From assembly GCF_019059575.1 (NCBI RefSeq), contig NW_024881540.1:744001-808000 (forward strand): 64,000 nt of DNA. The letters are read 5' to 3'. Position numbers and translations under genes: made by a program. Origin of the DNA: Amphibalanus amphitrite. Lineage: Eukaryota; Arthropoda; Thecostraca; Balanomorpha; Balanidae. Under the pieces are notes generated by a model. It ran no database searches and was not told the origin of the DNA. It was given only the letters and a program-made list of their open reading frames with translations. Shown piece after piece: positions 1-64,000 of the stretch (positions are counted from its first letter, which is position 1; each line of letters begins with the position of its first letter).

Positions 1-1465
1 GTCAAGGTAGCTGTCCAGGATAGAGGACAATCCGATAGACAGCCCTTCGTTGTATCTGTTCCGCCATCTGACAAAGTTTGTCATGTTCAATGATGCCTTA
101 TAAATTTCAATTCCAGGATATCCCTTTTAAGTGAAACCGCACTTTACTGAAACAGTTTTGCTGGCATCCAAGGCCAGATATGAGATTAGTGTGACCTGAG
201 GGGTCAGTGGTCATTGACATTGAAATTCCATGTTCAATAGATCATGTCAATAGAAAGAGATCAACTAACGGATGTTACTGGGAATAATATGACTTGAATT
301 GTTGCATGTTACTGATTTATCATCTGAATTCATTAATTTCAGCGGGTCCCTCCAAAACTTTGTAAGTACAGTTGTCAGTAGCTTTTCACACCACGTTTGA
401 CATGAGATGACTGTTCTCCTAGGCTTGGGGTGGCAATGTCAAAGTTTTAGTGATGCGCGCTCAATCATAACACAATTAATTCTCCATTCCTGCCTTTAGC
501 CTATAATTGTCTGCTAATCTGAGTCGGTAGCATGCCTCGCGAGGTAGAGTTTGGTTTCGACTGACAAAGGGACACCAGTTTCTCCCAGAATTAGACCGTA
601 GAGTTGTTCACCAAGATTTGCTAAAATTTGATCATATGCGACTGCTGTCTATTTCTCCCCTTTTTGACCACCCGCAATTTTGTCCGTCTTTTCTACTGAG
701 GTCATCGTGGGTCAATCGTTAAAAGAAGGGTTCGTCCAGCTGTCTTAACAGATAATTTGTTTCTCTCAGCAGGTCCATATTGGTGCATTGTTCGCGGTGC
801 AGCTGAGGGCCGGTGACCAGCGCTCTTTCCGATCCAGCGGCGAGGGACCGGGCCGTACTCACTACTCGTGAGATTCAACTGCCCTTGCCGTTGGCCTTAT
901 CTGGGTTAAATTAACATGACGGTCACTTTGCCTGCTAGTTAAATGAGTTATCACGCCTTACTTGAAAGGTTTCGACAAATTGAACGTATTCCAATGCAAT
1001 GATCACTAAATATTATTTAGATCATTTGAGAATGTGCCCTGTGATCAAAAGCTATCTTGTTTGATTCCTTCATTTGTTAGATGTTGAAACGAAGATGAAA
1101 CTCAGACCTTTGGTTCGTTGTTGGTCTGAATCCTTTAAAACAAAAGATATTTCATCGAATCTACATACACAAGATTGGTAAATTAAGCCAACGTGGAGGG
1201 TTTGGTGATAAGCATCCTTAAATGCTTGTAATTATGGGCTTGGCGGTGACATGACCTTGTTCCAACCTGACCGGCGACTATTCTAACTCATCGACGCTTT
1301 TGGCGCCGCCTAGTGGATGTAGTTGTAGGTTATACGGGCTAGGTGGCAGTAGAGTGCCACGCATCTAATTCGTACCAAAAGCTTTCATTTATGGGGTCGA
1401 TCTTTGTAAAGACTGAATTAAAACGTTTTGCTTCGACATCCTCCTCCCTCTTTATCTCTCTCTCT

Positions 1466-1541
<76 letters not shown>

Positions 1542-1588
1542 TTCGCTCACTCACTCTCTCGCTTACTCACTCTCTCGCTCACTCACCT

Positions 1589-1677
<89 letters not shown>

Positions 1678-4474
1678 ATGATCATTCACATTCGCTCTCT
1701 CACTCACCCACTCATTTCAGTCAGTCACACGCAATTGCGTGTCGACACGAGGGACCTCTTGCGGCAGTTTAGGGAACCAGCTTGGTCTATTTCACGCTAG
1801 GCGGCACTGCTAGTACTGTCAGCTGCATCTGAGCGCTGTCGGAGTTTGCACCGAAGGCATTAGACCTTGTAGGTGGCGCTAGTGGTGCTACCGTTGGTGC
1901 GTCAATTGACCTGTTAATTGTTTAAGGTCATGTTAAGGTCAAGGGTCATACATTTTTCATTTCGCGCGGACTACAATCGCTCAGTTTTTAGTAAAACTCA
2001 CGGGGCCCAACATACTACCAAAATTAATCACAAATTACTTCAAGGAACGGGTGGGCGTGGTCATGTTCACGATCCCGGTGTTAACTAACTCGAGTGGGTT
2101 GGAAGTGTAGGCAAATGCTGCCCGGCGGCATAATGCGTGGTGTGACCGTGCACGTTACATGGTTCCTGTCAATTAATTGGGGTCTGCAGACTGTTCAGTA
2201 ATCCGATCTGAACAAAACGGTCCTTATCATACCTGAATGGTGATTAATGGGCGGTGATAATTTCTCGCTTCCCTCCGTAACCAACTCTAGTTGTGTACAA
2301 CCAGGGTGACATTTTCACGTCATATTGAACGGTAACTCTCTTGACGTTTATGATTAAATTGTCTCAAATGATGCATCAACTTAACAACCGTGGCATTTGT
2401 ACGTTAATCTTTGATATGCCTCGAAGGGAGCGAGCATCGACATCTGTTAAATACCGATAATGCTAGGAGAGAAAGGAAATTGATGGACATATTCCGAACA
2501 GCGATCAATTTATAACGATTGAAATGGCGATTCAGCTTGGCTTCGTCTATATAAACTCGAGTCACGAAACGGCTCAAGGCTGATTTAATAACGAACCGGA
2601 AGGCGATTCAGTTTCCCCATGTTCTTGTTCTGGCGCTGGGCTGCCGAAGGAGCAGAATAATGTTTAACGTTTACGATGTTTTACTCTCCTTATCCAATTG
2701 TGACTGTAACACTAGATTGATAATGGATTGAAACGCTGGTCTACCGGGTCCAAACTAGTTAGATTATGAAACAGCTTATGCTGACCTACTAGCAAAAAAA
2801 AAACGAATTTGTGGTGGTCGCGTCGTGAGGGCGTGTCATTGCGTTTACGTTGATTCGTGATCAGATCGCCGCGGTGTAGTCCCGTTGAGCCTGTGATGTG
2901 ATGCCGGCGTACGGTCGTGTGGTCGACGTGACAACTTAAAGATAATTACGTTAGCGGTCTCTGTGAATCCGAATCAGCAACATATCCGGAGTAACCCTCC
3001 CTTCTTTCCCAGACAGATTATTGAATTTTCACGCTATATTTACAAACGGACGATACAATGCTGGTCATTTTCAACCGGTGTACCACGATCGGTTGTCAGC
3101 TCGCCAATGCCAACTTAGCCTTAAATCTAATCCTAACGCCCTAACTGCAGAGAACTTAATTACAAACCATCGCGAATTGAACCGTCATGACGTCATCTGA
3201 CGTAGTTTGACGCGTCAATAGTGACCAGCGCCCCAAAAATGACACCACCTGACCTGTTCCCCTCCCCTCATACATTGAATCCCACACCTCACTGCGGCCA
3301 GACCGCGCGCGCGATGGCCGACGGATAGCGCTCCCCCAATACCAATGTAATGGTGAGCCATTAGCCTACACTGACCATTACTGACCCGCCCTGGCTGTCC
3401 CTCTAACCCCTCTGTCTATCCCATAGACAAGGCCGGACCAGTCAGGCCCATTAGCCCCTTCCCGCCTTTACAAACAGACGCCCCACTGCCGCGCTGCTCG
3501 GTCGGGAGCGGAATGTAGCGACCATCTGCCCTCCCCTTCCCAGTCGAGTAACACTCCCACGATGTTAAATCCATTACCCTCTAATGGTGGCTCAGGTTAG
3601 ACCCCAGGGAGTGGCATTTGTAATCCAGATCAGAGACATCCGATGGGTGAATGGGAGGTTGAATTGTCCATGACGGGGAGGCAGTCTTGATGAGGCGGAC
3701 AGATGAGATGACTCACTTGACAGTGTTTGATGATTGCTGTCCACTCCAGTTGAGGTCCGGTGCAGTGATGATCCGATCAGCAGAGAGGCCGCTCCGGCCG
3801 AAGCCGGGCGGGGCGGTGTCCCGCGCCGAGTCCCGAGGCGTTCTGTCCCTGGTGGTCGGCCTCCGATGGTCGGTCTCGGGTCTGTCTGTCACTCGTGGTC
3901 TGATCCCGTAGTCTGTTCCCCTCTCTCCTTCTCCGCTGAGTTTTGTTCGCCTGTGATTTCCGGGCCGGAGGTTCCGGGCGTCGCCGGGCCTCCCCGACCG
4001 GGGCAGAAAATTGGCGACATCCCGTCTCGCATCCGGAGTCGAGACCGTCGTCCTCCTCCTCCATTCCGCCGGAACGTGACGTCTTCCTCACTAGCACGGC
4101 TCATCCGTCTCAGCTGTCTCCTGCCGGATGACGTTTTCACACTCGATTTTCGCCGGATGTCGGTCCCTGCCTGTGCCGGACGCGGCGTTTTTCGCACTAG
4201 CCAGCACCGGAGGGCAGGTGGTTCCGACTGCGCCGCGTTCGTCGGCGGTAGCTGCGCCGGCCCGGATGGGTGTGTTTGTACTCCACCCTTCGGCGAGCCT
4301 TTGATCTTCGCTTAATGGTGACCGGCCGACGGGTCGGGGGATCGTATGGTCGACTCCCTCCCCACGCCGGCTCAGCGCCGCGGCAGGCAGTGCGATCGTC
4401 CTTACGTATAGAGTGTGAGAGATGTCCTTTTTGACGTACGGAGAAAAAAAATGTCACAGCTTCCAGCTGTTACA
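1..4474 (-). repeat. 3' LTR, partial (cut by window edge)
   Basis: Direct copy of 11999-16490. The offset is 11998 at the start and 12016 at the end; the difference comes from a CT microsatellite (+14), an A-run near 2794 (+3) and an A-run near 4443 (+1). Outside these I noticed only two substitutions (2017 and 2029), which implies a recent insertion. The sense start of the LTR is TGTAACAGCTGG, reading left from 4474. A strand-symmetric TATA-like box lies at about 2547-2554. The GC-rich stretch 3480-4420 lies near the sense 5' end of the LTR. Open frames here, such as 3734-4315, have no recognisable protein content. Confidence 0.85.
1450..1676. repeat. CT/GA microsatellite inside the 3' LTR
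   Basis: Long CT dinucleotide run with short TTTATC, TTTCGC and CACT interruptions. The second LTR carries the same run, about 14 bp longer, at 13450-13687. The Ser/Leu-rich and Arg/Glu-rich reading frames here are products of the repeat. Confidence 0.95.
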
Positions 4475-10264: not shown

Positions 10265-13200
10265 ACGGCACATCTCTGTTTCCCTACTAAAACCCCGCGG
10301 CCGGACGTTGGTTACTGACCCTTGCAGCCCTTCTGTGAGAGACCGTCTTACGCGTTTTCACCTAACGAACCGGTGGACACAAGCCTGCTACCCCGACGAC
10401 CGCAGTCTCACCGGGCTCATAGACAGGTACCTACTCCGTACTCTCATGCAGTCATGGCACCCGCAAGTGGCGCCTTTGAATCATTGACCGGTGTGACTCG
10501 AAGACTCCATGACTGAATCTATCCTACAATTTTATCCGACGCCGTGGAATCCTGTCCTGCAGATGTGTGTTCAAGCGCGTTAGCGTCATGAGTGATACAT
10601 GCTGCGATCCTTTCCGACGGTGGACTTACCTCACCTCATCCTGGCGGAATTACCCCTTCGCCTCAATCTATCACCTTCGTATTTTGTCACTCACCTTCGG
10701 CGGAGTGCTCCCTCGTCCTGTCTCTCTGACTCACCTCTCAGCTTGGGCGTCTTATGGCGTTCTTTGTTCTGATATCTGCCTAACATATTTACTTACTTAC
10801 TCCGTGACGTGAGACAGTCCAATCCTAGAAGACTTAGACGTATCAGCAGAGTCAAAAACACATGAAAGTGTTGCAACATACCTCCTCTTCGGCTAGCATC
10901 CATCCTTAGATCTTTCCTCCTTTTGTAATTCCGGTTTCAATAGCTATCGACCACTTCAGGGTCACTCCTTCTGTATCTCCTTACCTGTCTGACCCGTAGA
11001 ATCCCTTCAGTCCATGTGCGCACCGCTGCGCGGTACGAATCAATTGTTACCCGCGACCCGAACAAAAAAAAAATCATTGGATAGAGAAATCTGCGCCGCC
11101 AAATACTCAGACCATCTACTACTCCTTTCATCTACACGATATTTACGCCTATCAGCCGAAACGTCTCTACCGTAGCTTACTATATTCACTCAGTGACGTC
11201 ATATTTCTAGGAGATTGCCAGTTTCATACTTGTTGATCGATAATGACGTCATAAGATCCTGTCGCCTGTGGGTTAGTACATCCTGACCTCTCATCGTTCA
11301 ACCTTGGAGACGCTAACTTTGATCGGAATTTCAACTCGACTATTCTGAGTGTTGTCTGTGATTTAATGAAGTAATTCTCAGTAGTGCCCAATCATTTGTG
11401 ATCATGAATATTTTTATGTGGATTGTTGTCTGGCGTCCCTCGCCACGTTGTCGCAAATTTCTCTGGGGACATAAGTATTTGCATCAAGGGAATTCTAAGG
11501 TAGTGCGCCGGATTAGTCTCAATTTGGCATTTGGGTTTAAAGACAATCCAAATCATGTGATTTCATGTTATGCCACTGAACCGATTTTTAGAATCAATTT
11601 CATAATGCAGATTTTTATTGACATACTGGTCCAGATGATTTATTTAATTTGCAATGGACAATCAACTTGTGATGTTCTAATTTAAGGTAGCTCGGTTTAC
11701 CGATTGCTATGGTGTTGAAGGTATACAGATTTGGCAAATTTGGTATCCAATTATTCAAATGGGGGACATCAGCAATGGGAAATGGCTATATCAAATCAGA
11801 GACAGGAGCAGTAAATTTCAATAAGCTAATGGGGAACTGACCATTGGAGAATGATGCTAATTTTTAATCTAAATTGATGGCTCGGCAAAGACTGGTGTAA
11901 TCAATAGTACGCTCATTGCCATTTCTCCAGTGTTAATGGTAATTTGATTTATTTACCTAGTGGGTACTTTTGCTGGCAAACCTGCTATTATAATTTCAGT
12001 CAAGGTAGCTGTCCAGGATAGAGGACAATCCGATAGACAGCCCTTCGTTGTATCTGTTCCGCCATCTGACAAAGTTTGTCATGTTCAATGATGCCTTATA
12101 AATTTCAATTCCAGGATATCCCTTTTAAGTGAAACCGCACTTTACTGAAACAGTTTTGCTGGCATCCAAGGCCAGATATGAGATTAGTGTGACCTGAGGG
12201 GTCAGTGGTCATTGACATTGAAATTCCATGTTCAATAGATCATGTCAATAGAAAGAGATCAACTAACGGATGTTACTGGGAATAATATGACTTGAATTGT
12301 TGCATGTTACTGATTTATCATCTGAATTCATTAATTTCAGCGGGTCCCTCCAAAACTTTGTAAGTACAGTTGTCAGTAGCTTTTCACACCACGTTTGACA
12401 TGAGATGACTGTTCTCCTAGGCTTGGGGTGGCAATGTCAAAGTTTTAGTGATGCGCGCTCAATCATAACACAATTAATTCTCCATTCCTGCCTTTAGCCT
12501 ATAATTGTCTGCTAATCTGAGTCGGTAGCATGCCTCGCGAGGTAGAGTTTGGTTTCGACTGACAAAGGGACACCAGTTTCTCCCAGAATTAGACCGTAGA
12601 GTTGTTCACCAAGATTTGCTAAAATTTGATCATATGCGACTGCTGTCTATTTCTCCCCTTTTTGACCACCCGCAATTTTGTCCGTCTTTTCTACTGAGGT
12701 CATCGTGGGTCAATCGTTAAAAGAAGGGTTCGTCCAGCTGTCTTAACAGATAATTTGTTTCTCTCAGCAGGTCCATATTGGTGCATTGTTCGCGGTGCAG
12801 CTGAGGGCCGGTGACCAGCGCTCTTTCCGATCCAGCGGCGAGGGACCGGGCCGTACTCACTACTCGTGAGATTCAACTGCCCTTGCCGTTGGCCTTATCT
12901 GGGTTAAATTAACATGACGGTCACTTTGCCTGCTAGTTAAATGAGTTATCACGCCTTACTTGAAAGGTTTCGACAAATTGAACGTATTCCAATGCAATGA
13001 TCACTAAATATTATTTAGATCATTTGAGAATGTGCCCTGTGATCAAAAGCTATCTTGTTTGATTCCTTCATTTGTTAGATGTTGAAACGAAGATGAAACT
13101 CAGACCTTTGGTTCGTTGTTGGTCTGAATCCTTTAAAACAAAAGATATTTCATCGAATCTACATACACAAGATTGGTAAATTAAGCCAACGTGGAGGGTT

Positions 13201-13449
13201 TGGTGATAAGCATCCTTAAATGCTTGTAATTATGGGCTTGGCGGTGACATGACCTTGTTCCAACCTGACCGGCGACTATTCTAACTCATCGACGCTTTTG
13301 GCGCCGCCTAGTGGATGTAGTTGTAGGTTATACGGGCTAGGTGGCAGTAGAGTGCCACGCATCTAATTCGTACCAAAAGCTTTCATTTATGGGGTCGATC
13401 TTTGTAAAGACTGAATTAAAACGTTTTGCTTCGACATCCTCCTCCCTCT

Positions 13450-13689
<240 letters not shown>

Positions 13690-16600
13690 ATGATCATTCA
13701 CATTCGCTCTCTCACTCACCCACTCATTTCAGTCAGTCACACGCAATTGCGTGTCGACACGAGGGACCTCTTGCGGCAGTTTAGGGAACCAGCTTGGTCT
13801 ATTTCACGCTAGGCGGCACTGCTAGTACTGTCAGCTGCATCTGAGCGCTGTCGGAGTTTGCACCGAAGGCATTAGACCTTGTAGGTGGCGCTAGTGGTGC
13901 TACCGTTGGTGCGTCAATTGACCTGTTAATTGTTTAAGGTCATGTTAAGGTCAAGGGTCATACATTTTTCATTTCGCGCGGACTACAATCGCTCAGTTTT
14001 TAGTAAAACTCACGGGGCCCAACATACTCCCAAAATTAATTACAAATTACTTCAAGGAACGGGTGGGCGTGGTCATGTTCACGATCCCGGTGTTAACTAA
14101 CTCGAGTGGGTTGGAAGTGTAGGCAAATGCTGCCCGGCGGCATAATGCGTGGTGTGACCGTGCACGTTACATGGTTCCTGTCAATTAATTGGGGTCTGCA
14201 GACTGTTCAGTAATCCGATCTGAACAAAACGGTCCTTATCATACCTGAATGGTGATTAATGGGCGGTGATAATTTCTCGCTTCCCTCCGTAACCAACTCT
14301 AGTTGTGTACAACCAGGGTGACATTTTCACGTCATATTGAACGGTAACTCTCTTGACGTTTATGATTAAATTGTCTCAAATGATGCATCAACTTAACAAC
14401 CGTGGCATTTGTACGTTAATCTTTGATATGCCTCGAAGGGAGCGAGCATCGACATCTGTTAAATACCGATAATGCTAGGAGAGAAAGGAAATTGATGGAC
14501 ATATTCCGAACAGCGATCAATTTATAACGATTGAAATGGCGATTCAGCTTGGCTTCGTCTATATAAACTCGAGTCACGAAACGGCTCAAGGCTGATTTAA
14601 TAACGAACCGGAAGGCGATTCAGTTTCCCCATGTTCTTGTTCTGGCGCTGGGCTGCCGAAGGAGCAGAATAATGTTTAACGTTTACGATGTTTTACTCTC
14701 CTTATCCAATTGTGACTGTAACACTAGATTGATAATGGATTGAAACGCTGGTCTACCGGGTCCAAACTAGTTAGATTATGAAACAGCTTATGCTGACCTA
14801 CTAGCAAAAAAAAAAAAACGAATTTGTGGTGGTCGCGTCGTGAGGGCGTGTCATTGCGTTTACGTTGATTCGTGATCAGATCGCCGCGGTGTAGTCCCGT
14901 TGAGCCTGTGATGTGATGCCGGCGTACGGTCGTGTGGTCGACGTGACAACTTAAAGATAATTACGTTAGCGGTCTCTGTGAATCCGAATCAGCAACATAT
15001 CCGGAGTAACCCTCCCTTCTTTCCCAGACAGATTATTGAATTTTCACGCTATATTTACAAACGGACGATACAATGCTGGTCATTTTCAACCGGTGTACCA
15101 CGATCGGTTGTCAGCTCGCCAATGCCAACTTAGCCTTAAATCTAATCCTAACGCCCTAACTGCAGAGAACTTAATTACAAACCATCGCGAATTGAACCGT
15201 CATGACGTCATCTGACGTAGTTTGACGCGTCAATAGTGACCAGCGCCCCAAAAATGACACCACCTGACCTGTTCCCCTCCCCTCATACATTGAATCCCAC
15301 ACCTCACTGCGGCCAGACCGCGCGCGCGATGGCCGACGGATAGCGCTCCCCCAATACCAATGTAATGGTGAGCCATTAGCCTACACTGACCATTACTGAC
15401 CCGCCCTGGCTGTCCCTCTAACCCCTCTGTCTATCCCATAGACAAGGCCGGACCAGTCAGGCCCATTAGCCCCTTCCCGCCTTTACAAACAGACGCCCCA
15501 CTGCCGCGCTGCTCGGTCGGGAGCGGAATGTAGCGACCATCTGCCCTCCCCTTCCCAGTCGAGTAACACTCCCACGATGTTAAATCCATTACCCTCTAAT
15601 GGTGGCTCAGGTTAGACCCCAGGGAGTGGCATTTGTAATCCAGATCAGAGACATCCGATGGGTGAATGGGAGGTTGAATTGTCCATGACGGGGAGGCAGT
15701 CTTGATGAGGCGGACAGATGAGATGACTCACTTGACAGTGTTTGATGATTGCTGTCCACTCCAGTTGAGGTCCGGTGCAGTGATGATCCGATCAGCAGAG
15801 AGGCCGCTCCGGCCGAAGCCGGGCGGGGCGGTGTCCCGCGCCGAGTCCCGAGGCGTTCTGTCCCTGGTGGTCGGCCTCCGATGGTCGGTCTCGGGTCTGT
15901 CTGTCACTCGTGGTCTGATCCCGTAGTCTGTTCCCCTCTCTCCTTCTCCGCTGAGTTTTGTTCGCCTGTGATTTCCGGGCCGGAGGTTCCGGGCGTCGCC
16001 GGGCCTCCCCGACCGGGGCAGAAAATTGGCGACATCCCGTCTCGCATCCGGAGTCGAGACCGTCGTCCTCCTCCTCCATTCCGCCGGAACGTGACGTCTT
16101 CCTCACTAGCACGGCTCATCCGTCTCAGCTGTCTCCTGCCGGATGACGTTTTCACACTCGATTTTCGCCGGATGTCGGTCCCTGCCTGTGCCGGACGCGG
16201 CGTTTTTCGCACTAGCCAGCACCGGAGGGCAGGTGGTTCCGACTGCGCCGCGTTCGTCGGCGGTAGCTGCGCCGGCCCGGATGGGTGTGTTTGTACTCCA
16301 CCCTTCGGCGAGCCTTTGATCTTCGCTTAATGGTGACCGGCCGACGGGTCGGGGGATCGTATGGTCGACTCCCTCCCCACGCCGGCTCAGCGCCGCGGCA
16401 GGCAGTGCGATCGTCCTTACGTATAGAGTGTGAGAGATGTCCTTTTTGACGTACGGAGAAAAAAAAATGTCACAGCTTCCAGCTGTTACACCAATGAGGG
16501 GGAAATTTGGCAGCAAATATATTTGCTTTCAAATATGACGCGGCTCATACAATAACAAAAGTGTCTCTGATAAGGCATTTTGTAGTTCTTCCAACTTATT

Positions 16601-16753: not shown

Positions 16754-17869
16754 GGGGAAGCCGGGGGAAGCCCGGCATAGTAAGCTCTTTTTCATTTTTA
16801 TTACATACCATACGTGCTGTATAAAATGTTGATATCCTGTTAGCTAGCTAAGTTCATTGGCCGTGTCTTCCCAAAAATTCGGTTTCGTGGAATAAGTATA
16901 AGGTTGAGAAAATCGAGTTTTAAAAAAGTGTTGATTTTTCTGGGGTAAGCCCGGCATAGGGGTAACGCCGGCCACCTCCCCAGCGCTTTACAACGAGTTG
17001 ATGAAACCATTATGTGTCTTCCAAATATTAACGGAAAGTGAAATATTAAGGTACTGATTAGCTCTGGACATCTTAGAGTTTATGTCACTACTGGTATTTT
17101 AGCTAGCGTCTACCACATATACAGTACAGGTCGATGAAAATCGTGATGCAAAATTGACAAAAAATGTGTATTTCAAAACTCCTTAAAATTTATTTTTCTT
17201 TTTACCCTAATGCATCATATTGCATATCATTCGACTCGGCTGATGAAGAAGAACACAACGACACCATTTTTGAAGCTCTAGCTTCATTGTCTGTCGCGTT
17301 ATCGGCCAAAACGTAGTTTGACCCTAGTTGACCTTAAGTGACATGACTGGCTTTGTCTATGATAACATGCTTATTTTCGAAATTTATCTTTGATCTAGGT
17401 GTAAACCAATTCTGCTCAGTAACTATTATCTCATGGAAAATAGTGGTTTAGTGGCATTGCTCTCGGTTGGGGGTAAGCTTGGCCACTCGCCCGGGGTTAC
17501 CCCAATGTGCTAATTTTTATTTTAGAACAGCGATATTCGAAAAAATGTCATACTTAAGCCAGCCTGCCTCGTCACCCCTCACTACAAACACTTAAACGGT
17601 CCTTACATAACATTCGTATAAATATTAGTACTGTATGGTATAACATTAACAGTGCAACATATCTCACTTTTTAGCTAAAAACCCTTAAAATATCATTTTT
17701 GCGCTATAACTTTAACAATATGCAATTTTTGTTAGCCTTAACTTTTTTGCTGGCGTTACCTTAGCTGCCACGCTGAAAGGACAAACAGTTGAGCATTTTA
17801 TTGTGAATAATTTAGCCGGAAACGGGGTGGCCGGGCTTCCCCCGCGCCCGGGCTTCCCCCGGCTTCCCC
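16754..17869. mobile_element. TA-flanked DNA element 1, non-autonomous, 1116 bp
   Basis: Seen: TA (16752-16753) then GGGGAAGCCGGGGGAAGCCC at the left; the reverse complement of the right end (17869) gives the same 22 bases through CCCGG, followed by TA (17870-17871). The word GGGGTAAGCCCGGC recurs inside at 16942-16985 and, altered and on both strands, at 17468-17513. A TA duplication with inverted ends fits the Tc1/mariner (IS630) superfamily. No transposase frame is present. Confidence 0.8.
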
Positions 17870-21386: not shown

Positions 21387-21752
21387 GTAAGACAACACGA
21401 AAGCCGTTACGAAATGCTCCACGCATGAAACCTGCCAAATGCTCGGTCACGGCATTGTGCATGACAGCAGTTGGCCCGGCAGAGCTCTTCGCTCAAAGGA
21501 TTTGACGCTGAGCTCGAACCCTTTTTATTGAGTATCTTGAGACGGTGCTCGAAAAAAAGACATGACAGCAATCCACAGTACACATCCTGTGCCAAACTGC
21601 TCAACCATAGCTATTGAAGATAAATTTTATGCTGTTTATGCTATTTTATGCTAGTAGGTAGTTATGTATATGTATGTTATGTACTATATGTACCTACATC
21701 ATACCTATATACACATGTAGGTTTTAACCCTATTCCTGGCGGGGGCCTTTAA

Positions 21753-22667
21753 CCCGCGAGTTGCTGGGGGGGGGGCGTTAAACGCCCCCACTTTTTTCGC
21801 TGGGCTATAGCATAAAAACGGCGCGCCGCAGGCGCGCCAAATTTTGGGTACCTGTAGGGAATTGATTGAAGTTTATTGTGACAAAGTTTCAAAAATATCG
21901 GTCGGAAAATTTTTGAGATATCGAGGTTTTAGTGACGTCATGATTTCTGAGTTTACGACCAAAAACGGCATATGTTCGAAAAATCATATAAAATCACTGA
22001 ATAGACATACAGACATGCCGTAAACGCCATTAGACTGCCAAAACCATGAACAATCAAATGGCTATCTTCGATTATTGATTATCGTTCCGCAGTTTCCAAA
22101 ATCTTGAACTGAATCTTGGCAATTTCTCGTGACCAATTCACGACCATGATACATGCATTTCTTAAATTGAACTTTTTGAGCCAAACACGTACACATATGA
22201 TAAAATGAATGTCACCATCGTGTTCTACGCCCCAAATTACCCATAAAACATGTGTCACAGGCTGCAAATATCAGTTTTGATTTTCGGGGATATGTGCCTA
22301 CCCGGTTGACCTGACCTTGACCCTGACCTATGCTTGACTGACCCCTACATGGAGCTGACACTCTTGTAGGCCTTATATGATGGATTGTGCACCGTTTTGA
22401 CAGAGCTTATGACGAGAGGCGCCCATTGCGAAGTCCTGAAGTCCATGCTACTGAAAGCCCGATTTCAGGTGTTTGAACTGACCTTGACCTGACCTGTGAC
22501 CTCAAAATTCAACTTTAAGGTACTCATCTGAAGCGCCTCGTCGCGTTCTTTCGTTTGCCGCCTCGTGCGTTTCGCTGCGCCTATCGGTTCTCGAGTTATC
22601 GGCTGGGGGCGTTTAACGCCCCTCCCCAGCAAACGGTGGGTGGCGAAATACCCCAGCAACTGCCGGG
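21753..22667 (+). mobile_element. TTAA element B, inserted in the hairpin of element A
   Basis: TTAA (21749-21752) then CCCGCGAGTTGCTGGGG; the right end's reverse complement is CCCGGCAGTTGCTGGGG, then TTAA (22668-22671). Subterminal hairpins have cores CGTTAAACG (left) and CGTTTAACG (right), each between G and C tracts. A second stem GGCGCGCC-GCA-GGCGCGCC lies at about 21820-21840. The copy at 43386-44312 is about 95% identical by eye. The empty site in A reads GGGGGCCTTTAAGGCCCCC, so insertion was at the exact dyad of A's hairpin. Confidence 0.85.
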
Positions 22668-23346
22668 TTAAGGCCCCCCCCCCCCTTCAGGTTTTTCTTG
22701 TGCCATTGCCGAACGCCGCAAGACTGAAAGCTCATACTCGGTGACTTTTTCTAAACATTCATTGCGCACATTTTGACAAAAAAAGTTGCCGGGTCAGGTC
22801 AGGTCAGGTCACCAGAGGCGGTTTGGTGACCCCACCTCAGAAAAGTTTGCAATCACGCCAGAGCTAGAGTTTTTGACCGATCAATTTCTTCTATTCAGGT
22901 TTTAGTTAGGGTACCAGTATGTGCAATTTGTACATGTCAGAATTTTCATATATGTGACCTGAAGTCAGGCTAGCTAGACTCGTGACCTTTACATTGCAAG
23001 CCTATGGGAAAATATTGAAACGCCTCCTGCTTCGTGTAAACGAGTCAAAACCACCCAATTCTTTCAGTATTATGGAAGATTATCTCATCAGTGATGATCC
23101 TGGTGCCGCTAATTGACAGGGGCACCGGCAAAGGTCATCTGAGGTCATGTGACGTCATAAATCGTTTTTCTGTCAATAAATCACGACATGATGGTGCTAA
23201 AGACTTGTAAGTGGTACCAAACTACTCGCCTGGTCAAGGCGCGTCGTTTGGTATGCAGCATGACCATACCCCACAACCTCATTGATGAATGACCTGACCT
23301 TGACCTCAGGTCAAATTTCAAATTGACCTGTGAAGGTCATCACATA

Positions 23347-24318
23347 GGGTAGCCTGGGGCAAGACGCCCCAGATAATTTATTTTGCTACATAACTTTTGT
23401 CCCACATCACCTGGAAGGCCAAATTTGTGCTCAATGCGTTCTTTGGACATTTTACTTTAAATTCCACCCCTCAAATTCATTCATTTATGATCGGACTCCC
23501 AGCTAGGAAGTGATTTGTGAACCAACTGCAAATGGGGCATTTTGCCCCAACCCCAGGGCAAAACGCCCCACGGCCTGGGGCAAGACGCCCCATACTCTAG
23601 ATTAAAGATTGAACATGCTAGTTGACTAAATCTTATATGAGAGGCCCGTTAGACCTTGGGAGGCACGGCACTGAAGTTAACACCTTCCATCCTGTCAGGT
23701 GTTCAGCTATGACACTATTGTATGTACAGGTTTTTCACCTGCCTCATAAGGCCAAATAATAAATTATTGCAATGCAAATGTTAACAAAATACTTCCTTTG
23801 TCATTAATTTGCTGAGAAAGGTACATAAAATTGCATAGAAACTTACTGTTCGCCAGCAACCGAACATTAGGAAGTGGGTAGTCGGAACAATACATGAGGT
23901 AAAACGCCCCATGGGGCTTTTTGCCCCGCGACCTACTGGGGCGTTTTACCCCATCACGTAGTTTGGTCAGAGAACAACGCCTTGCACTCCAGCAAGGCAT
24001 AATTTAAAACGGACCAACCCAGCATTATAAGCGTAAAACAATAGTTGTTCAAAATACATAAAAGTCGTTAACCTGATGTGAACCATAAAAGAACGCCATG
24101 ATGCATAATCTGACTACAAAACATAAAAATCACTCCAAAAACAAATTTTTGGCTATATCTCCCTAAAGAGTTATCACAATATCTTTCCAGTCTGCTCATA
24201 TAATTATCATATAGTGCACGTTTTAAAGAAGAGAGAATGTTTCCCCAGAACCTTGCCAGTTCCGAGAAACATCGGTGAGGCGTTTTACCTCGGCGGGGCG
24301 ACTTCCCCCGGTCTACCC
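23347..24318. mobile_element. TA-flanked DNA element 2, non-autonomous, 972 bp
   Basis: TA (23345-23346), GGGTAGCCTGGGGCAAGACG at the left; the right reverse complement is GGGTAGACCGGGGGAAGTCG, then TA (24319-24320). Its word GGGGCAAGACGCCCC recurs in clusters at 23534-23594 and 23897-23952. It sits inside TTAA element A. The related element at 44589-45579 shows the unoccupied site GTCATCATGTATATCATTCG (TA at 44974-44975), proving precise insertion. Confidence 0.85.
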
Positions 24319-25453: not shown

Positions 25454-26396
25454 GGGGAAAGTGGGGTAAGACGGACACCTTAACTTTGGAGCCATTTTTC
25501 GGCCGGTTAGAAACATCATAGAAACGGGAAACTGAGTGAAAACCTCTTTTAGACATTTTACTTCCATTTGCCAGAAGATGAGACTTAGACCTGATTCAAC
25601 AAATAAACTGCAGCTATTTTTGCAAAACCTTGCAAAAACCCGTCTTACCCCACCCCATGGGGTAAGACGGTCACATGGGTAGGGCAAGACGGCCAGCTTC
25701 TTTCACCGACCAGTACAGCTCGCAACAAATGCCCGAAATTAGCTGCATTGATACAGTCGCTCGTTGGTCTCAAGTGCCTCGGAAATGGCAGTATACAAGA
25801 TTTGTGCAGAAGGCGTATGCTCGTATATAGGCCCTAGATCAGAAGTCATGTAGAACCGTTTTTCACATTCATCATTCGAGAATAAACTGTGCCGAAGGAA
25901 TATTGCTAACATGTCTGTGAGTATCGGAATCGAAGATATTCTTATAAGAAATGCTTCTTTTTTTCCTACAGCAACAAAAATATTTTCACCATTACAGACC
26001 CATTGGATTCATAGTTGTCCGTCTTACCCCTAACTCAATGTAAGAAGTTCAGCACAATTTTTCTCTGTGGACAATTTGATGCAGACAAAGCAAATCCGCG
26101 GTAAATGAACACTGGTGGCATATGAGTGTACCACAAGTGATTGCGAGTTTTTAGCTGTATAGTGCTGCACACAAAAACTTGCACAATACATTATGGATGT
26201 TTTCAATGAAATTAGTGTTTTAAAGAAATCAAAATAAAAGATTATCGACTGAACACAAAATCACCAAACTTCAATGGTGGTGTGTAGTGGGAAAGACAAT
26301 TCTGGTCCTAATTTTTCTCGCTCGTAGCGCTATTGGTTTGGTCTGCAGAAGGGGTGCCCGTCTTACCTACCCTGACCGTCTTACCCCACTTTCCCC
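25454..26396. mobile_element. TA-flanked DNA element 3, non-autonomous, 943 bp
   Basis: TA (25452-25453) and TA (26397-26398) bound perfect inverted ends GGGGAAAGTGGGGTAAGACG. The word GGGGTAAGACGG recurs at 25640-25699 (both strands, around CCCCATGGGG) and at 26020-26030 on the minus strand. The right end carries two copies in a row. No transposase frame. Confidence 0.85.
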
Positions 26397-30006: not shown

Positions 30007-33000
30007 CTGCCGAAAGAAAAGGACTTCTTGCAACCTACCTATATCAAGTGGCAATGGTAGGAATAGATACCAAACGGCCGGAAACAACTTTTGCATTTAA
30101 AACGGAATCAATCCTAAGCAGGAGCTCATATATATGTCAACCGGTTATTGACCATGATTAATTCAGTTTTACCTTTTTAACCAGCTCCAGCAGGTCTTTC
30201 AGGAAGCCTGTCAACTCGTCATCTTCGATGGTGCCGCTGTTGTCCTAAAATGTAACGTCATGTGAGAAAAAGAACAGAACTGTGGATAGTTCACAAGGTG
30301 TGAGTACCTGTAATTGGGTGAAAATTGCACCAAGCATTAATGAAACATCAGCACAGGGTTTGTTCCAAATGTCCTCTTAATAGTTTCTCAACTGAGACAT
30401 TGGCTTCTTGTGACTATATTCGAGCAAAACGTGTACGCTTAACGTTGCAATCTATTTCGCTCCTGGCTGCAACAAAATAAATGGCATGTTACAGCTAGAG
30501 CATCAGATACCGTGTTCCCGAGAACGCTTCCAAGTTCCATCAAACCCATTTCATTTAAACTGAATCGTTGAGAGCGCTTCGCTCTGGACTCACCCTGTCG
30601 TAGAGCGCAAATACTCGTTCGATGTCATCTCGGGTGAGTTTGGAGGCTCCCTGACAATTGGAAAATGTCAGTCATGCGGCTTAGATAAGGGGCTCAACGG
30701 GAAATGGGGTCAGTTATATGATTTATTAAAATAAAAAAGCTGCAGACATACAGCTTAGGCTGAACGTGAACACACTGAACAGTAACTAAAGGGTATTCAT
30801 ATGACATATCTCTTTACACCATCCATTCCTTGTCCTTTATACCGGACGTAACTCAGCCGTTTATTTATATCGCCCTTGATAAAGCATATTCACACTGCAG
30901 CGGAAAGATTGCGCTTACCAACCACTGGAAACACCAGACATGATGATTTAACCCGTTGTTTGTATCTCATCCGAACTCATGGAGCATTTCATTTTCTAAA
31001 AGTGATTCTATTTTGACCATTGCTTAAATTTGGTTCGTCATTCGTGACTACCAAAAAGTACCAAAAGTGACACCTACATGCGAATACTCGGGTTCTGCAA
31101 TTTAAACGGATATTGGCACAAACAAACATTAACATGCACACGAATGACTACATACATGCATACATATATGGTACACGTACAGCTGCAGATGCATTGGTAT
31201 AAGGATACCGCACTAAGCGTAGGGGAGAGTGGGGTAATTTGGCCGCTTTTTTTAGAAAACGATGTAACTTAAAATTGACGACACATTTCTGCATTTCCTC
31301 AACGCTGGCAGGTGTCGCATTCATTTTACTTTACTGGACAGTGAACTTGAAATGATAGAGTAATTACTTATATTGAAATTGTGACGTATTACAAAGGTCT
31401 GCAAGGCGGCCAAATTGCCCCACTAGCAGGGTTATTTGGCCGGGGGTGTGGGGCAATTTGGCCGGTGTTAGTTTGCGGTCGGGATTTTCTGTTATATTGC
31501 GAGTCAGCTTCAGATTCAGCAATGACGTGTGTCCTATGACGTATTTACCACATTTTGGAGGTTGACTCATGGGGTCACAGGGGTCAAAATAGCCAAATTA
31601 GCGGCTCTAGATGCGTAGACAGTTTTTTACGAATAACTTTTGAAGTAATCAAGCTAGGCCAAAACTTCGAGTACCATCGTAATTCTCTCGTCATTCCGCA
31701 TCGAAACATATATGTGTTGACCTCGAGAAGTCAAGGTCAAAGGTTGACCTCAGGTCACGTTACCTCAGGTCGCTTGACCTCAAGGTCACGTGATTTCAAG
31801 GTCATCATGCATATCATTCGATGCGCCTTGGCGAGCTGAACAGAATGAGGCCGTTTGTGCGGCTGTACCGTTTTTATGTAAGGATTTATTAGCAAAAAAC
31901 GTTTGGTAACCTTTGATGACGTCACATGCTCTTACAGTTGACCAATCGGAAGTAAGGCATCAAAGTAGTCAAAGTTGGTCATGAATCAAGTCATTTATGG
32001 TACAATTGACCATGAAAACTCTGCCATCCCAGCATAGTGACCATGAGCGCACCGGCCAAGTTACCCCGCTAGTCCCGGCCAAATTACCCCATATTGCCAT
32101 TCTGAAAATTTTTGTGTATAAAGTCATCACGGCTATACGGAATTAGATGAAATTGCTCTTGGAACCGCTGAACACCCCCAAGAATGGCGCTATAATGTCT
32201 GAATTCGTTTTTAGCCCAAATACTACATGTTATACAACTTTGTAAACAGAAGTAAAAGTTACCATTTTCTAATGAAATTAACGTTTTATTAATTTTGAAT
32301 AAAACTACGAGGGGCAAAGTTTTGACATTTGTCCTCCAGTTATTTCTACCCATGACAAATGAATAGAGACTAGAGTTATTTCACTCACTTTTATTAGACA
32401 TCGTACAGGTGGGGGCGGCCAATTTACACCACCGGCCAAATTACCCCACTCTCCCCTACCGCTTACTCGCGCATTGTTTCAACTTCGTCCGTCTTTTTGT
32501 ACGAATAGTTTGTCCGCAGATGTTCTTTCTCTTATCATGACCTTAACACAGATAAAATGTGTATTAAATGTATCGTCTTCCGCGTTATTTGTCTTATGTT
32601 CCAGTGCCATTGGCGGATTCAGGTACTTGGACGATAGGTATACAATACGATGCATCGGCGCTACGGGTGTGCTTATAAGGGTAACTGCATTCCAAATTTT
32701 CGCTATTTACAGACGAGTCGTGGTTGAATGCACGTCTTCTGGCTCCGTCAGTGTCCATTATATCACAAACCGCAGCCACTTCTGTCTTCGCCTTTCACTA
32801 CTGTCTCCTAGTGACACAGTTACTTTACTGCGTTACACGGTAGCTCAGTGGGCCGGGAGGAAGGCTCCGGCCAAGCCCCGGCCAGCCGCCTGGGTCGCGA
32901 ACGATCCGACACCGGGGGAAGAGAGGGCAGGGGAGGGTAGACGACGGTCCCTGGGCTCAGTTAGCGCCTCACTCACCGCCGGTCCCGCATCCCGCCGCGC

Positions 33001-36000: not shown

Positions 36001-39000
36001 CACATCTATTTTATTCGAAGATGCCAAACCACGCAAATTTGTGTCGTTTGTTTAACTAATAGTTCGTGATAACCAATGAAGAATTAGCTTAGCATAAAAG
36101 CTTCAAGCTCACATAAGTGGCGCATACTTTAGGCTTCAGATTATTGGTGGCGAACTTCTTTGCTTACCATGGTGTCGGTATATTCGATGAGCTTGTCTTC
36201 AGATACCTCAGTAGACTTCTTTGCTTCTTTGAGAAGATCACGGAGAAAAGCCTGTGAGCGCGGTAGAAATGAACAATCAGCGGAAAAGTTGTTAACTTTG
36301 GTCTATGAGTGAAATACTCGTACCGTACTTAAGTACCTACCGCACTCGTACTCGTACTTAAGGGCCATATATCTTGATTAACAAGGAATTTTATGTTTAG
36401 GTTACAGTGAAATTGTATAATATAGCAATAATAAATATCAAAAGAATTGAAATTAGCCAGTGCCGGTAACTGATCATGAATAAAACATAAGATTAAACAA
36501 ATTGAATTAATTTTACTTGAATATGAATGATGCGATTGTGTCTTCATCTGCCAAATACGGTGACATCGACTGCAGCTGGGGGAGGGGAAGGGATGAGAGT
36601 GTCCTGTCGCTTCACCATCGGTCCCTGTCATGTCTGCGGGGCCCGGAACGAAACTTAAGCCGCACTTACCTACAGTTCGGCCGGATGGTAGTGGCCAACA
36701 TCGAGTGGCGCCGGCATCTCAGACTTAACACATCTGCACATCACACACTGCTCACTGCACACTGCACAGCGCACACTGCACATCACACACTGCACAGCGC
36801 ACACTGCACAGCGCACATCGCAAACTGCACAGCGCACACTGCACACTGCACAGCGCACACTGCAATCACACACTGCACAGCGCACATCGCAAACTGCACA
36901 GTGCACAGGTGATCTAGGAATCATCGACCAAACGAACATTACACATGAGATCGAGGGTAGAAGGGTTCAAGGACTGAACAGCTGCGCACAGTACCTTCAG
37001 TTCATCCGCTTCGATGTAGCCCGAGTTATCCTTGTCATACTGACGCCATATCTGGAAGAAATTGACAGTATTTCACTGGCGGACAGTTTTTTGTTGTTTT
37101 TTTATTTCAACAACTTCAGCATTAGCCATTGTCATCGATACCGTGGTCTCCTTACGTATCTTTGCTATGTTGCATATTGTTATTATTATAGTAATATAAG
37201 TTTTATATATAGGAAAGAAAGGTATTGATTATAACCTGGCAGTAAAAGTAAAACCGCCTTCGAATGAAGGGTTAACTCGCATAAGAAAATGTGTTTTGGG
37301 GGCTCCTCCGAAGACAGCACGCCCTATCAGGAACGCAAGCAAAATACCTCTGTGTTGATTTTTGTGTTGAACGTTATGTTATATCGTATTATCCACAACA
37401 TCTCTAATAGGGCTGGATCTCTAAAAGGACCCTGCGCTATTCGGTTTTATCTTTTTTTTTCATCTTTTTCCTCTCACTCCTTTTAAGTGCACCGAAGCTG
37501 TTGTTTTCGAAAAAAAAATTATTGTCGTCATGACAAAGTATTTCTTTCAACATGCAGAAATTGTCCAGTCATGTCGATTGTCGAGGCTAGCATAGGGTGT
37601 ATGTATATTACAGGGAGGCGATTACATCAGGTCTTATTAGGAACACGGCCATCAGAGCGGGTCACACGACTAGGGGTGGTGTGGTTTATCGTCATGACTA
37701 TCCGACAGGCTTGTTTGTTTGGTCAGTATATATGCAGCGCAACATTAGACGCCACGGCCCATAATGCACCGGCGACCCCCCCCCCCCTTTGATAACAGGT
37801 CACAGCATGATACCAACCGACGCTGGTGGTCCCGCGGCTGAGGACACAAGTGGACTAATCGGTGGGCTTAGCCCGCTACGATAAGTGCTTCTTTTCACTT
37901 TGATTTGTAGAAAACGTTCACTTTGGATTTTTTCCATGCAGAAAATGTGGAATGTATGACTTATTCATCCAATAAATTAAAGTAAATCAAGCTAACTTTA
38001 TTCGAAAGCCTCTCGAAAAAAAAACTAACACATTAAATCGCCCACCTTCATGAACTCAACGCTGGACTCCAGGGGGTTATCGAAACGGAAGAGCAGAAGA
38101 AAGTTCTCCTCCATGGGCAGCAGCTGAGCCAGCTGCAAACAGGTCAACGTCAACGTCAACTGGGAGCCGTGTATACTACTTATATACTGGCACATAGCTG
38201 ATAGCCGTCCCGAGGGGATCTGAGGTCACAATAGCATAGGCAGTACAGGGGACAGTAGACAACATAGCGGGGATAGCATATAACTCAGCTGAGGATCGTA
38301 ACGGCTAGACGACACAATAACTGTACAATTTACATTTGTATAACTATGACATCAATCGGGGCTATCCGGTGTATGCATGCAGTTCAGGTGCGTCTGTCCT
38401 TATGTTGCGTTAAACGTTTGAAAGTTTTAACAGCATAAGCGTCGTTAACATTCCCTCCATTTCCTGCATGGGCCGATTTATCGACCTCACCTCTCTGATC
38501 TCAATGCGTCCGTCCTGATTGTCGTCGTACGCCTCCATGAAACATTCCTTCAGTTCAGCCAGCATGGTGTCTGAGACCACCTGAAACGACCCACTGTCTG
38601 TCACAGGAGCTCCACTAAATATCACATGGTGGACTGACACGCCGGGAACCTTCCACTTTCCTTCTGAAACGAGCTAAGAGGTAGTCGTTGAAGCGTCATA
38701 GACGTGGTTTTGAGACGTGATAGACGTGACACGACGACATAAAAATGACGCATCAAAATGACTACGTTCATGCAACTTATACCTAGTCGAATATGTGAAA
38801 CAAATTTCAGGAGTGTCACCATTGCGTTTTTTCCATTGGAATAATTTACACGTCATTGTTGAAGGAGGCGCCTAGCCCCCTTCATGGGTAGCACTGCACC
38901 CCGTTTTTTTTTAAGGACATTTAGCCATGAGCACCCCTTTGAAGTATCTCCACATGTTTTACGTACCCACAGTCGCATTTGGGCGAGGTGAATGACTCAG

Positions 39001-47860: not shown

Positions 47861-49440
47861 TCTGCAACAGCGCAGTGCAGGGCCTTATTGCACCATCTAA
47901 ATACTCCATCTGATAGGTCGCGGGTTGCGAGCCAATTAATAAAAGGAAATGCTAAAATTGAGTTAAAATTCAGGAAGGTGACCTTAGATGTTTTTTTTTT
48001 GTTTTTTTGTTTAGTGATATGACCTGAAACGACCGAGTTACTTTCACTATTATCTTTTACAACGTTTTGAACGTCGTTCACTTATTGCCGCTATCGTAGT
48101 CCAGAACTGGAGTTAGATGAGGTGTAACGCCCCAGTTATCGTCACTCAGCTTTGCAGCAACATCTCTGAAATGAACTACTGCTTTTATTATGTGCATTGC
48201 GCATATTGTAAGCAACGTTGACAATAGCCGAAAGAAAGCGTTTCGACACATTCACAGTGTGCTGCGCTCTGAAGAAGGTTCAATTTAATAAAAAGTCCAG
48301 ATTCTCCTCCCTTGTGATCAGTGTCACGCTCGTGTCGCTAGAATGACTCCTGAGCACCAAAATTTATCCCAAGAATGTAAAATATTTGCTTTGGCCGGGT
48401 CGTTCCTTAGCCAGTGACTGGCGCAAGAACCCGATAAGCTCTACAGTGACAGCATAATAGACTTATGATAAATATGTCCTCGATTGTTATGCATTTAAAC
48501 TGTTAATCATTACTAGCATTTTTTAATTTGGTAATTTTATATTGAATAAATATTATATTAATAATTTTTCAATCTAATTCACATCGTTCCCTTTATAATG
48601 TAATATGTATGTAATGTTCATGATTGACGCTATCGTTGATACTCTTATACGCCTTTTGAGCTACAAAGATACGAATGAAAAATGTGAATGTGACGCGATT
48701 GATGAAGTGGAGAACAGTTACGAAAAACACCAGCATCAAACTACTGTCACATAACAAGCACTGTGGGAGTCTGACAGCCATCACTTGGTGGAGGCTGGAT
48801 GGCCTGAATAAAATGAGTGGCCTTTATTTACCAATAAGGCATTGGGTGGGCCGGTTCCGCACGCTATCAGCGGACCATAACGCGTGATCGACGACAAAGG
48901 GGCGCGGTCGTTTGGCGGCAAAGTGTTTTTGCTCCCCAGTAGTCGGAGGGCTTCGCCCAGAGGTGGCTAAATTGAACTCGAAAATTGGGGATACATTCAT
49001 TTACATTAGGATACAGATTACACATTAATTTCTTCGCATTCACTTTTTGAGGATGCAGCTGTAAACGCAAACATGGCCGTCGCATTGGTGAGCCAGCGGC
49101 AGTGCGTTGGGATACTGTCTTCTCTGTGTCAACCCATGCTTCTGACAGTGTGTCATTGCTTTGTAAAATAGCCCCTTAAAATTCTTGAAAGATCATGGGC
49201 TCCAAAAACAATTGTCAACTTTAGTTATACCTAATGAAAATCTGACGTCTTTAGCATCCCAACTACATGCCTTAAATGCGTAGGTAAACTGTTATCCTCC
49301 AGAGATCCTCTTGCACCCGAAACGCTTTGGAAAGGACGGCACCGTCAATGTTTGCTCGTAAGATCTACGCTTGAATTTTTCATTACAGCAACATGACATT
49401 CAGATTATCGCTCGCAAAGTGCAGGCCGAAATTAGTGTCC
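47861..49440. other. Upstream of the calbindin coding start, nothing firm
   Basis: Expected to contain the intron and 5' UTR exon implied by the TTGCAG just before the ATG. AT-rich, with no TE ends seen and no supported promoter. Confidence 0.35.
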
Positions 49441-60116: not shown

Positions 60117-60628
60117 TTAAACTTCTCACCGCCCGGCCGGCCGCCCGGCAGATGTCGTGGCGCGCGGTGCCGATAAGGCGCTGCCGCCCGTGCGCGGCGT
60201 CGAATTCTCGCCCTTATGGACACCGGCCGGTCGGCGGGCGTAACATGGTCCTCTTTAAGCCGTTTGAGGAGCCCCTAACAGTTAATACTTTTCAGAAAAA
60301 AGGCATCATTGGACTCAGAAAAGAATACCGCACCACATGAGCCATGAGCCCGTATACTTTTCCAAAATTCGGTTTTTTTTGAACAACCCTACTGTAGATC
60401 TATCGGTTCCCGAGATAGCCGTCGGCAGTTTCCAAAATGTTGAAATAGTCAACACTTTAACTTTGAAGACCTCTGGTGACCTGACCTTTGACCTGACCCA
60501 AAAAATGACCGAAGTGTTTTCGTCCTTATTTTAGACGTTCTTTCGATTGCCGCTTACTGTGTGTCGCTACGTGGCCCAGGAGCCGAGTTAGAAGGGGGGT
60601 CTTCAGACATCCCCCCGGCCCGGCGCGG

Positions 60629-61768: not shown

Positions 61769-61772
61769 TTAG

Positions 61773-63508: not shown

Positions 63509-64000
63509 GGGTAAGGTGCCTAATTAGCGACCCCCTTAATTTGAACAGTCATTGCTCACACTCTATGGGTGCCACTGTATTATTGGCTTGATTTTTGGAG
63601 AGATCTTTCATTTTTCTATTAAAATATAGTCATTTTCTGCCCCAAAATTCACTAACTTATTTGTAGTGAGCATTTTGGCAAACCATTGCAAAAAACGCTA
63701 ATAATAAAAACGCTTCCCGATTAGCGACCGGGGAGGGTCGCTAATAAGTCTATGGGTTTCCCCATATTAAAAATGGCAAAAAAATGCGATGCCTGAAAAG
63801 ATGAGATATGATCTCAAAAAGGTAACCTATATGCAAAGCACTCAATCACTCGAACAGGAACGTTTATCCAACACATTTACGTAAGTAAAAACTGATCACG
63901 TGATGCACCGAAGGCGAAAAGAAGGCGGAAACCCAAATTTTGCGGGCTATCTCGTACGATATTCGATGTCCGCGCTGAATTCGACACCCCTGCAGTCGGT
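63509..64000. mobile_element. TA-flanked DNA element 5, left part, cut by window edge
   Basis: TA (63507-63508) then GGGTAAGGTGCCTAATTAGC, the same layout as elements 1-4. Its word TAATTAGCGACC recurs as GATTAGCGACCGGGGAGGGTCGCTAAT at 63719-63745, about 210 bases in. The right end should lie beyond the window. Confidence 0.6.

Follow-up and report, generated by a model that had tools for sequence, protein, structure and literature searches.

Diverged TA-flanked elements carry element-specific words, predicted to bind transposase, at fixed distances in unequal arms

Repeated transposase sites within the transposon arms, known as the IR/DR plan, have been described for Sleeping Beauty and also for Bari, Minos, Paris and S (PMC4877112, PMC8834629). 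In Sleeping Beauty, each arm has an outer and an inner site. All four sites are required, and a half-site in the left arm acts as an enhancer (PMC7827188). According to the model given in that source, transposase binds the inner sites, pairs the ends, and then occupies the outer sites, where cleavage happens (PMC7827188). Note that long inverted repeats are not required for multi-site ends, since Bari1 has inverted repeats of only 26 bp, yet has three sites in its terminal 250 nt (PMC4877112, PMC8834629). Here we describe five elements, E1 to E5, that share such a plan. All are found in one window, by which we mean the whole 64-kb stretch of Amphibalanus amphitrite DNA that was analysed. A first-pass annotation of this window knew of no precedent for the elements. 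That claim does not stand, because Tc1-like elements with the IR/DR plan already carry repeated sites inside both arms. The plan is known; it is, above all, the divergence of the words at constant spacing that sets E1-E5 apart.

The coordinates of the elements and their sites are collected in Table 1. Re-reading of the sequence returned the same boundaries for E1-E4, and the same start for E5, as the first-pass annotation. The dinucleotide TA adjoins both sides of E1-E4 (4/4) and the left side of E5. Terminal inverted repeats (TIRs) are 22-24 bp long, at 96-100% identity, in E1, E3 and E4; those of E2 are imperfect. All nine ends begin GGGG or GGGT. Each is built in the same way, with TA, a 9-bp terminal block, and then a site with its first base at nt 10. 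The terminal blocks, in order of listing, are GGGGAAGCC, GGGTAGCCT or GGGTAGACC, GGGGAAAGT, GGGGAGAGT and GGGTAAGGT. The flanks of E2-E4 have only TA in common, and E1 alone would fit TATA. With its flanks joined (31215-31221 and 32457-32463), the target of E4 is near-palindromic, reading AAGCG-TA-CCGCTT. Element lengths range from 943 to 1235 bp (E1-E4) while arm distances barely shift, and each element is single-copy in the 64-kb window.

Table 1. Positions of elements E1-E5, their own-word sites and associated repeats in the window. Strand is shown as +, - or. and nt values are explained in the text.
Feature	Position	Strand	Details
E1	16754..17869	+	non-autonomous TA-flanked element; word GGGG(T/G)AAGCCCGGC; 22-bp perfect TIR; TA both sides
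E1 left outer site	16763..16776	+	nt 10
E1 left inner sites	16942..16972	+	nt 189, 206
E1 middle	17176..17347	.	E1 423-594; unrelated genomic repeat, 77% to 40128-40302
E1 right inner sites	17470..17503	.	nt 400 in + orientation; nt 367 in - orientation
E1 right second and outer sites	17830..17860	-	nt 27; nt 10
E2	23347..24318	+	word GGGG(C/T)AARACGCCC; imperfect TIR; TA both sides; paralogous uninterrupted sites
E2 left outer site	23356..23369	+	nt 10
E2 left inner cluster	23535..23590	.	reverse 202, + 209, + 231
E2 right inner sites	23914..23952	-	nt 392, 367
E2 right second and outer sites	24278..24309	-	nt 28 (4 mismatches of 14); nt 10
Uninterrupted repeat copies matching the E2 junction	31685-31933, 45948-46031, 56646-56872, 62063-62140		
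E3	25454..26396	+	word GGGGTAAGACGG; 24-bp TIR, 96%; TA both sides
E3 left outer site	25463..25476	+	nt 10
E3 left inner cluster	25638..25694	.	reverse 198, + 206, + 228
E3 right inner site	26017..26030	-	nt 367
E3 right second and outer sites	26356..26387	-	nt 28; nt 10
E4	31222..32456	+	word GGGG(T/C)AATTTGGCC; 24-bp perfect TIR; TA both sides
E4 left outer site	31231..31244	+	nt 10
E4 left inner cluster	31408..31463	.	reverse 200, + 207, + 229
E4 middle	31569..32013	.	E4 348-792; 445-bp unrelated genomic repeat, outside both arms
E4 right inner sites	32054..32090	-	nt 390, 367
E4 right second and outer sites	32417..32447	-	nt 27; nt 10
E5	63509..64000	+	left part only, runs off window; word ATTAGCGACC; TA on left
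E5 left outer site	63518..63532	+	nt 10
E5 left inner sites	63715..63750	.	+ 207, reverse 242

The hallmarks of a MITE, TIRs and a target-site duplication, are seen in 4/4 elements as TIRs with TA on both sides. No transposase family (Pfam) was detected in any of the 8 stop-to-stop ORFs of at least 80 aa that overlap E1-E4. Together with 19 others, these 8 make up the 27 ORFs scanned of the 145 listed for the window, and none of the 27 showed a recognisable transposase gene or remnant. Apart from copy number, with one copy of each in the 64-kb window, the observations support the description of E1-E5 as MITE-like, non-autonomous elements.

Evidence for insertion comes from E2, which lies within a diverged dispersed repeat. 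When its flanks are joined, with TA counted once, four copies of the repeat that are themselves uninterrupted align with them across the junction. Past the junction, identical columns number 15/26, 19/31, 17/25 and 18/31 (58-68%). In a control with 200 random right flanks, 17 had at least one alignment extending at least 20 bases past the junction, 5 had at least two, and 1 had at least three. This read-through in four copies supports a real insertion of E2 with TA duplication. The TA target-site duplication of Tc1/mariner elements is found here, as TA on both sides of E1-E4 and as the E2 read-through with TA once. Comparison of joined flanks with the 64-kb window gave no empty site for E1, E3 or E4, and nothing aligned across the E3 and E4 junctions. 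Elsewhere, a 4.5-kb direct duplication (1-4474 and 11999-16490, 99.4% identity, about 12 kb apart) stops short of E1. It could be either a true recent duplication or an assembly artefact.

We mapped the sites by searching each element with its own word. Positions refer to the first base of the match, counted from the nearer element end. Allowing up to 4 mismatches over 14-15 positions, the search gave 42 matches, and 33 of these were used as sites. The nine left out are eight matches with 4 mismatches (E1 227, 1070 and 1106; E2 188; E4 374, 383 and 545; E5 21) and E2 550, an opposite-orientation match at nt 423 from the right end, with 3 mismatches. One retained site, the second in the right arm of E2, likewise differs from its word at 4 of 14 positions.

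In the right arms of E1-E4, an inner own-word site starts at exactly nt 367 (4/4). The second site is looser, at nt 27, 28, 28 and 27 in E1, E2, E3 and E4, respectively. The left arms of E1 to E5 have an inner own-word site at nt 206, 209, 206, 207 and 207, that is, at 206-209 in 5/5. Measured from outer to inner site, the distance is 196-199 bp on the left and 357 bp on the right. Further sites accompany these. On the left, an additional inner site lies at nt 228-231 in E2-E4 and at nt 189 in E1, and a reverse-orientation site lies at nt 198-202 in E2-E4 and at 242 in E5. The left cluster of E1 thus deviates, having sites at 189 and 206 and only a weak reverse match (4 mismatches of 14). On the right, extra inner sites start at 390 (E4) and 392 (E2), with opposite-orientation matches at 400 (E1) and 423 (E2), while the own-word scan gave no second inner site for the right arm of E3. 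The internal-cluster distances in the first-pass annotation were right to within a few bases, with the exception of the E1 right value, which is 367 rather than 356. Its statement that E5 follows the same plan at about 210 bp agrees with the own-word site at nt 207.

The spacing was compared with the background in an end scan. On both strands, we took TA-GGG ends and asked where the 13-mer at nt 10 recurs, with no more than 3 mismatches, 14-699 bp further in. The scan counted 80 such ends; ends too close to the window edge were left out, except E5. Element ends gave a recurrence at offset 196-199 in 5/5 left arms, at 357 in 4/4 right arms, and at 17/18 in 3/4 right arms, because the E2 second site is below the scan threshold. 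At the 71 TA-GGG ends lying outside the elements, the own word came back 12 times in 48,706 end-offset trials (2.5e-4 per trial), never at 196-199 or 357. Two of these outside ends (22345 and 43982) recur at offset 17. Dinucleotide shuffles, 2000 per arm, matched the left window 0, 0, 2, 4 and 1 times, and matched offset 357 not once in any of the four right arms. Offset 17/18 was matched 1, 0, 0 and 1 times.

A looser scan dropped the GGG requirement and covered 7,038 TA ends at offsets 14-29 and 150-449. Offset 357 tied for the top with 8 rows, 7/8 inside elements. Offset 197 also had 8 rows, just 2/8 being from elements. Neither the 80 TA-GGG ends nor the 7,038 TA ends yielded a further element in the window with both main offsets. 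The left pattern is on the + strand in all five elements, which is unremarkable at n=5. We conclude from the end scan and shuffles that own-word clusters do stand at fixed distances on both sides of the elements, as had been proposed.

The words themselves were said to share little beyond GGGG. This is too strong, since we find a common site core as well as residual homology between arms. The core, GGGG(Y/G)AA, is present in 24/30 sites of E1-E4, and it is mainly the next ~7 nt that are element-specific. The window contains 34 occurrences of GGGGYAA where 15.7 would be expected, and 21/34 fall within the 4,266 bp of E1-E4. The outer sites of E1 were missed by the GGGGYAA scan because they read GGGGGAA. 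In E5, the G core is absent at all three sites and ATTAGCGACC is kept.

For sites chosen by their own word, identity in the variable part was 0.83 within and 0.40 between elements (0/5000 shuffles), and in the core 0.86 within and 0.84 between (349/5000 shuffles). This comparison is biased, because the sites were selected by own word. Hence, it was repeated with the 21 core-only sites of E1-E4, among which we retained a core-picked site at 32311 (E4) that is without the E4 word. Identity over the next 7 nt was 0.75 within and 0.37 between elements, a difference reached by 0/20,000 label shuffles. The claim that words match within an element, and differ between elements, at fixed distances is thus supported. 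If ends and internal sites had changed in step with a diversifying DNA-binding protein, values of this kind would be expected. The first-pass annotation had indeed proposed co-evolution with diversifying binding proteins; the pattern of the words fits that idea, under which binding of the words and several transposases would be predicted. At the right second site, the G half is partly lost in 3/4 elements (GAGG, TAGG and GGTG) and the element-specific half is mostly kept. These patterns suggest a bipartite site with separable halves, one being the common GGGG(Y/G)AA and the other a lineage-specific stretch of ~7 nt.

Outside the sites, the position-matched similarity of the arms was reached by 0/100 dimer-block shuffles and by 0/100 rotations on each side. 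The pairs that contribute most to this residual homology are E2-E3 and E3-E5 in the left arm and E1-E2 and E3-E4 in the right; the signal is from few pairs, with several others at chance level. Judged by this weak homology of the arms, E1-E5 are diverged relatives. Whole elements align only in short patches, besides a dispersed repeat common to the middles of E1 and E4. The E4 copy is 73% identical to 44766-45177 and 61952-62365. Since genomic repeats fill the middles of E1 and E4, these are filler, and the modules that have been retained are the arms, of ~230 bp on the left and 370-400 bp on the right. The dispersed repeat, which is diverged and rich in AGGTCA-type words, is found at 31569-32013, 40128-40479, 44766-45177, 56650-56978, 61952-62365 and 23131-23346. 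E1 and E4 each contain it, as does a TTAA-type element, and E2 splits it.

The TTAA-type elements form a second MITE group in the window, with ends TTAA-CCC, as in piggyBac-like elements. Members are at 21752-22668, 43385-44313, 52101-53306, 58626-60117, 61772-62768, 44589-45583 and 39638-41606; for 39638, the partner end may be 41847 rather than 41606. TTAACCC is read at 12/14 ends, the exceptions being two left ends, 61772 and 44589. Terminal words differ by family in this group, and GC-rich hairpins lie just within many ends. One member sits between the outer arms of a large imperfect inverted repeat, 57075-60391, in which 57075-57347 pairs with 60119-60391 (97%) and 57346-57763 with 58216-58626 (89%). 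The window also contains two exon-like ORFs, at 38410-38673(-) and 47600-47884(-), that match solved calbindin/secretagogin sequences. They are ~9 kb apart, and the host is most likely an animal, probably one with long introns.

How do E1-E5 compare with described groups? As in the IR/DR plan, each arm has an outer copy of the site and, a set distance away, an inner one. With Sleeping Beauty they share a TA target, outer and inner transposase-type sites in each arm, and an extra half-site in one arm (PMC7827188). The similar arms with long inverted repeats of Sleeping Beauty are not found. There, each of the two arms is an inverted repeat of ~220 bp with a single outer and a single inner site, whereas TIRs of E1-E4 span ~22-24 bp, the arms are unequal (196-199 and 357 bp), and inner sites are mostly clustered. 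Words also differ between families, and the GGGG or GGGT start of all nine ends is unlike Sleeping Beauty. Tc1/mariner TIRs typically, although not universally, start CAGT or CACT, and none of the nine ends does so. No autonomous copy encoding the DD(E/D) transposase with paired-like domain of that superfamily was recognised among the 27 of 145 ORFs scanned. Given TA and the site plan, membership of E1-E5 in Tc1/mariner is likely.

The Tc1-like Bari elements of Drosophila resemble E1-E5 in having short inverted repeats (Bari1) and in keeping the sites of the terminal ~250 nt while the intervening DNA varies (PMC4877112, PMC8834629). Bari sites are described as well conserved across subfamilies (PMC8834629), whereas the words of E1-E5 diverge at constant spacing. 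Moreover, 10/11 Bari MITEs among the rows listed are of the one-site type SIR-1DR (PMC4877112), whereas E1-E4 all keep outer and inner sites. ISL2EU (PHIS) elements, found in animals, also have a two-base duplication and TIRs usually starting GG, and they encode a THAP domain (PMC4482050). Their duplication is AT in A-AT-T rather than TA, and arms with repeated sites are not described for them in the accessible part of that source (PMC4482050). With E2-E4 flanks sharing only TA, the target duplication does not fit this group. Sailor (DD82E, IS630-Tc1-mariner) has TIRs mostly of 23-57 bp, a similar length, but mostly duplicates TATA and its TIRs usually start GT or CC (PMC8533490). Sailor does not fit either, since only TA is common to the E2-E4 flanks and all ends start GGG.

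Literature searches, largely of openly readable papers, gave among the matches listed no TA elements whose inner sites keep a fixed spacing and whose words are specific to each element. Searches on the words themselves gave, among the matches listed, no title on a transposon. An existing repeat-database entry for such elements (such as in Repbase) is quite possible. Pattern scans returned 1, 0 and 9 matches in viral contigs and 8 in bacterial and archaeal genomes, where an animal relative is hardly expected. At 17/18 of these loci (nine left-pattern, eight right-pattern), the own word was matched in 1-6 of 9 variable bases, and several of the 17 are copies of one sequence. We judged all 18 to be chance matches, that of the viral locus L001 on the first 1500 of its 5554 bases.

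Taken as a whole, we consider it probable that several related transposons with a TA target gave rise to E1-E5 as non-autonomous copies, and that their arms follow an asymmetric variant of the IR/DR plan in which one half of the site has diversified and the spacing has stayed fixed. The repeated words are most likely transposase-binding sites, each lineage presumably having its own transposase. Chance, or a selective reading of GC-rich words, has to be considered because the elements were originally picked by eye; the TA-GGG end scan and the shuffles refute it, and its probability is practically negligible. The GGGG and GGGT termini, together with the unequal arms, would also suit a TA-targeting group outside Tc1, undescribed or little described so far, with a zinc-finger/THAP-type DNA-binding domain, an asymmetric multi-site end, and a mechanism nearer to that of the P element, Mu or Tn7. 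Target duplications of the P element, Mu and Tn7 exceed 2 bp, and the partial likeness to ISL2EU, in GG starts and a THAP domain, is offset by its AT duplication. Overall, we regard a group of this kind as unlikely.

The words might instead be bound by host factors, or serve as a transcriptional operator or promoter. The left inner cluster might adjoin a promoter, and overexpression of Bari transposase is described as reducing activity of the Bari3 left-end promoter (PMC4120734). A single host factor would favour one word, which the divergence of the words speaks against; furthermore, words vary by element yet match the cleavage-proximal site at both ends of the same element. This makes such a role very improbable. 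Little credence can be given, too, to spacing merely inherited from a common ancestor, with words matched by gene conversion or recombination between sites. The arms do share residual ancestry, but sequence between sites has diverged almost past recognition while the main distances vary by just 0-3 bp. Gene conversion also fits poorly with sites on both strands, and with a right second site whose G half has decayed in 3/4 elements and whose element-specific half is largely retained. Finally, the reverse-orientation site in the left inner clusters of E2, E3, E4 and E5, and the inverted repeat that the E2 cluster forms, could indicate hairpins or foldback DNA rather than protein sites. Given the weak reverse match that is all the E1 left cluster offers, and the solitary right inner site of E3, this is scarcely credible.

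If E1-E5 do descend from related transposons with an asymmetric IR/DR plan, the arms could work as follows. The left module would consist of the 9-bp terminal block for cleavage, the outer site, and the inner cluster ~197 bp further inward. The right module would have the 9-bp block, the outer site, a mostly degenerate second site 17-18 bp inside, and the inner site 357 bp from the outer. Transposase at the inner sites may loop the arm and load a subunit onto the outer site. Looping and loading would then permit cutting only at properly paired left and right ends, as has been described for Sleeping Beauty. One part of the DNA-binding domain would shift in specificity by lineage, dragging all sites of its own element along, and the geometry of the complex would hold the arm spacing constant.

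For the host genome, we suggest tentatively, and at somewhat less than even odds, that transposon lineages radiated on a rigid asymmetric scaffold, with 197 bp in the left arm and 17 + 340 bp in the right, and that repeated switching of the word half prevented cross-mobilisation. If true, this radiation would have produced natural orthogonal transposon-transposase pairs, and its driving force would be escape from cross-mobilisation or from titration by non-autonomous copies. Changes in transposase recognition that preserve function are hard to study, because the protein cannot change unless all sites of its element do so too. In these elements, one genome would offer several recognition solutions built on a common geometry, so that the switch in specificity could be tested directly. 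Concrete predictions for the shape of the complex would come from the asymmetric plan and from the right-arm distance of exactly 357 bp, and the set of elements suggests a source of mutually orthogonal transposons for gene delivery.
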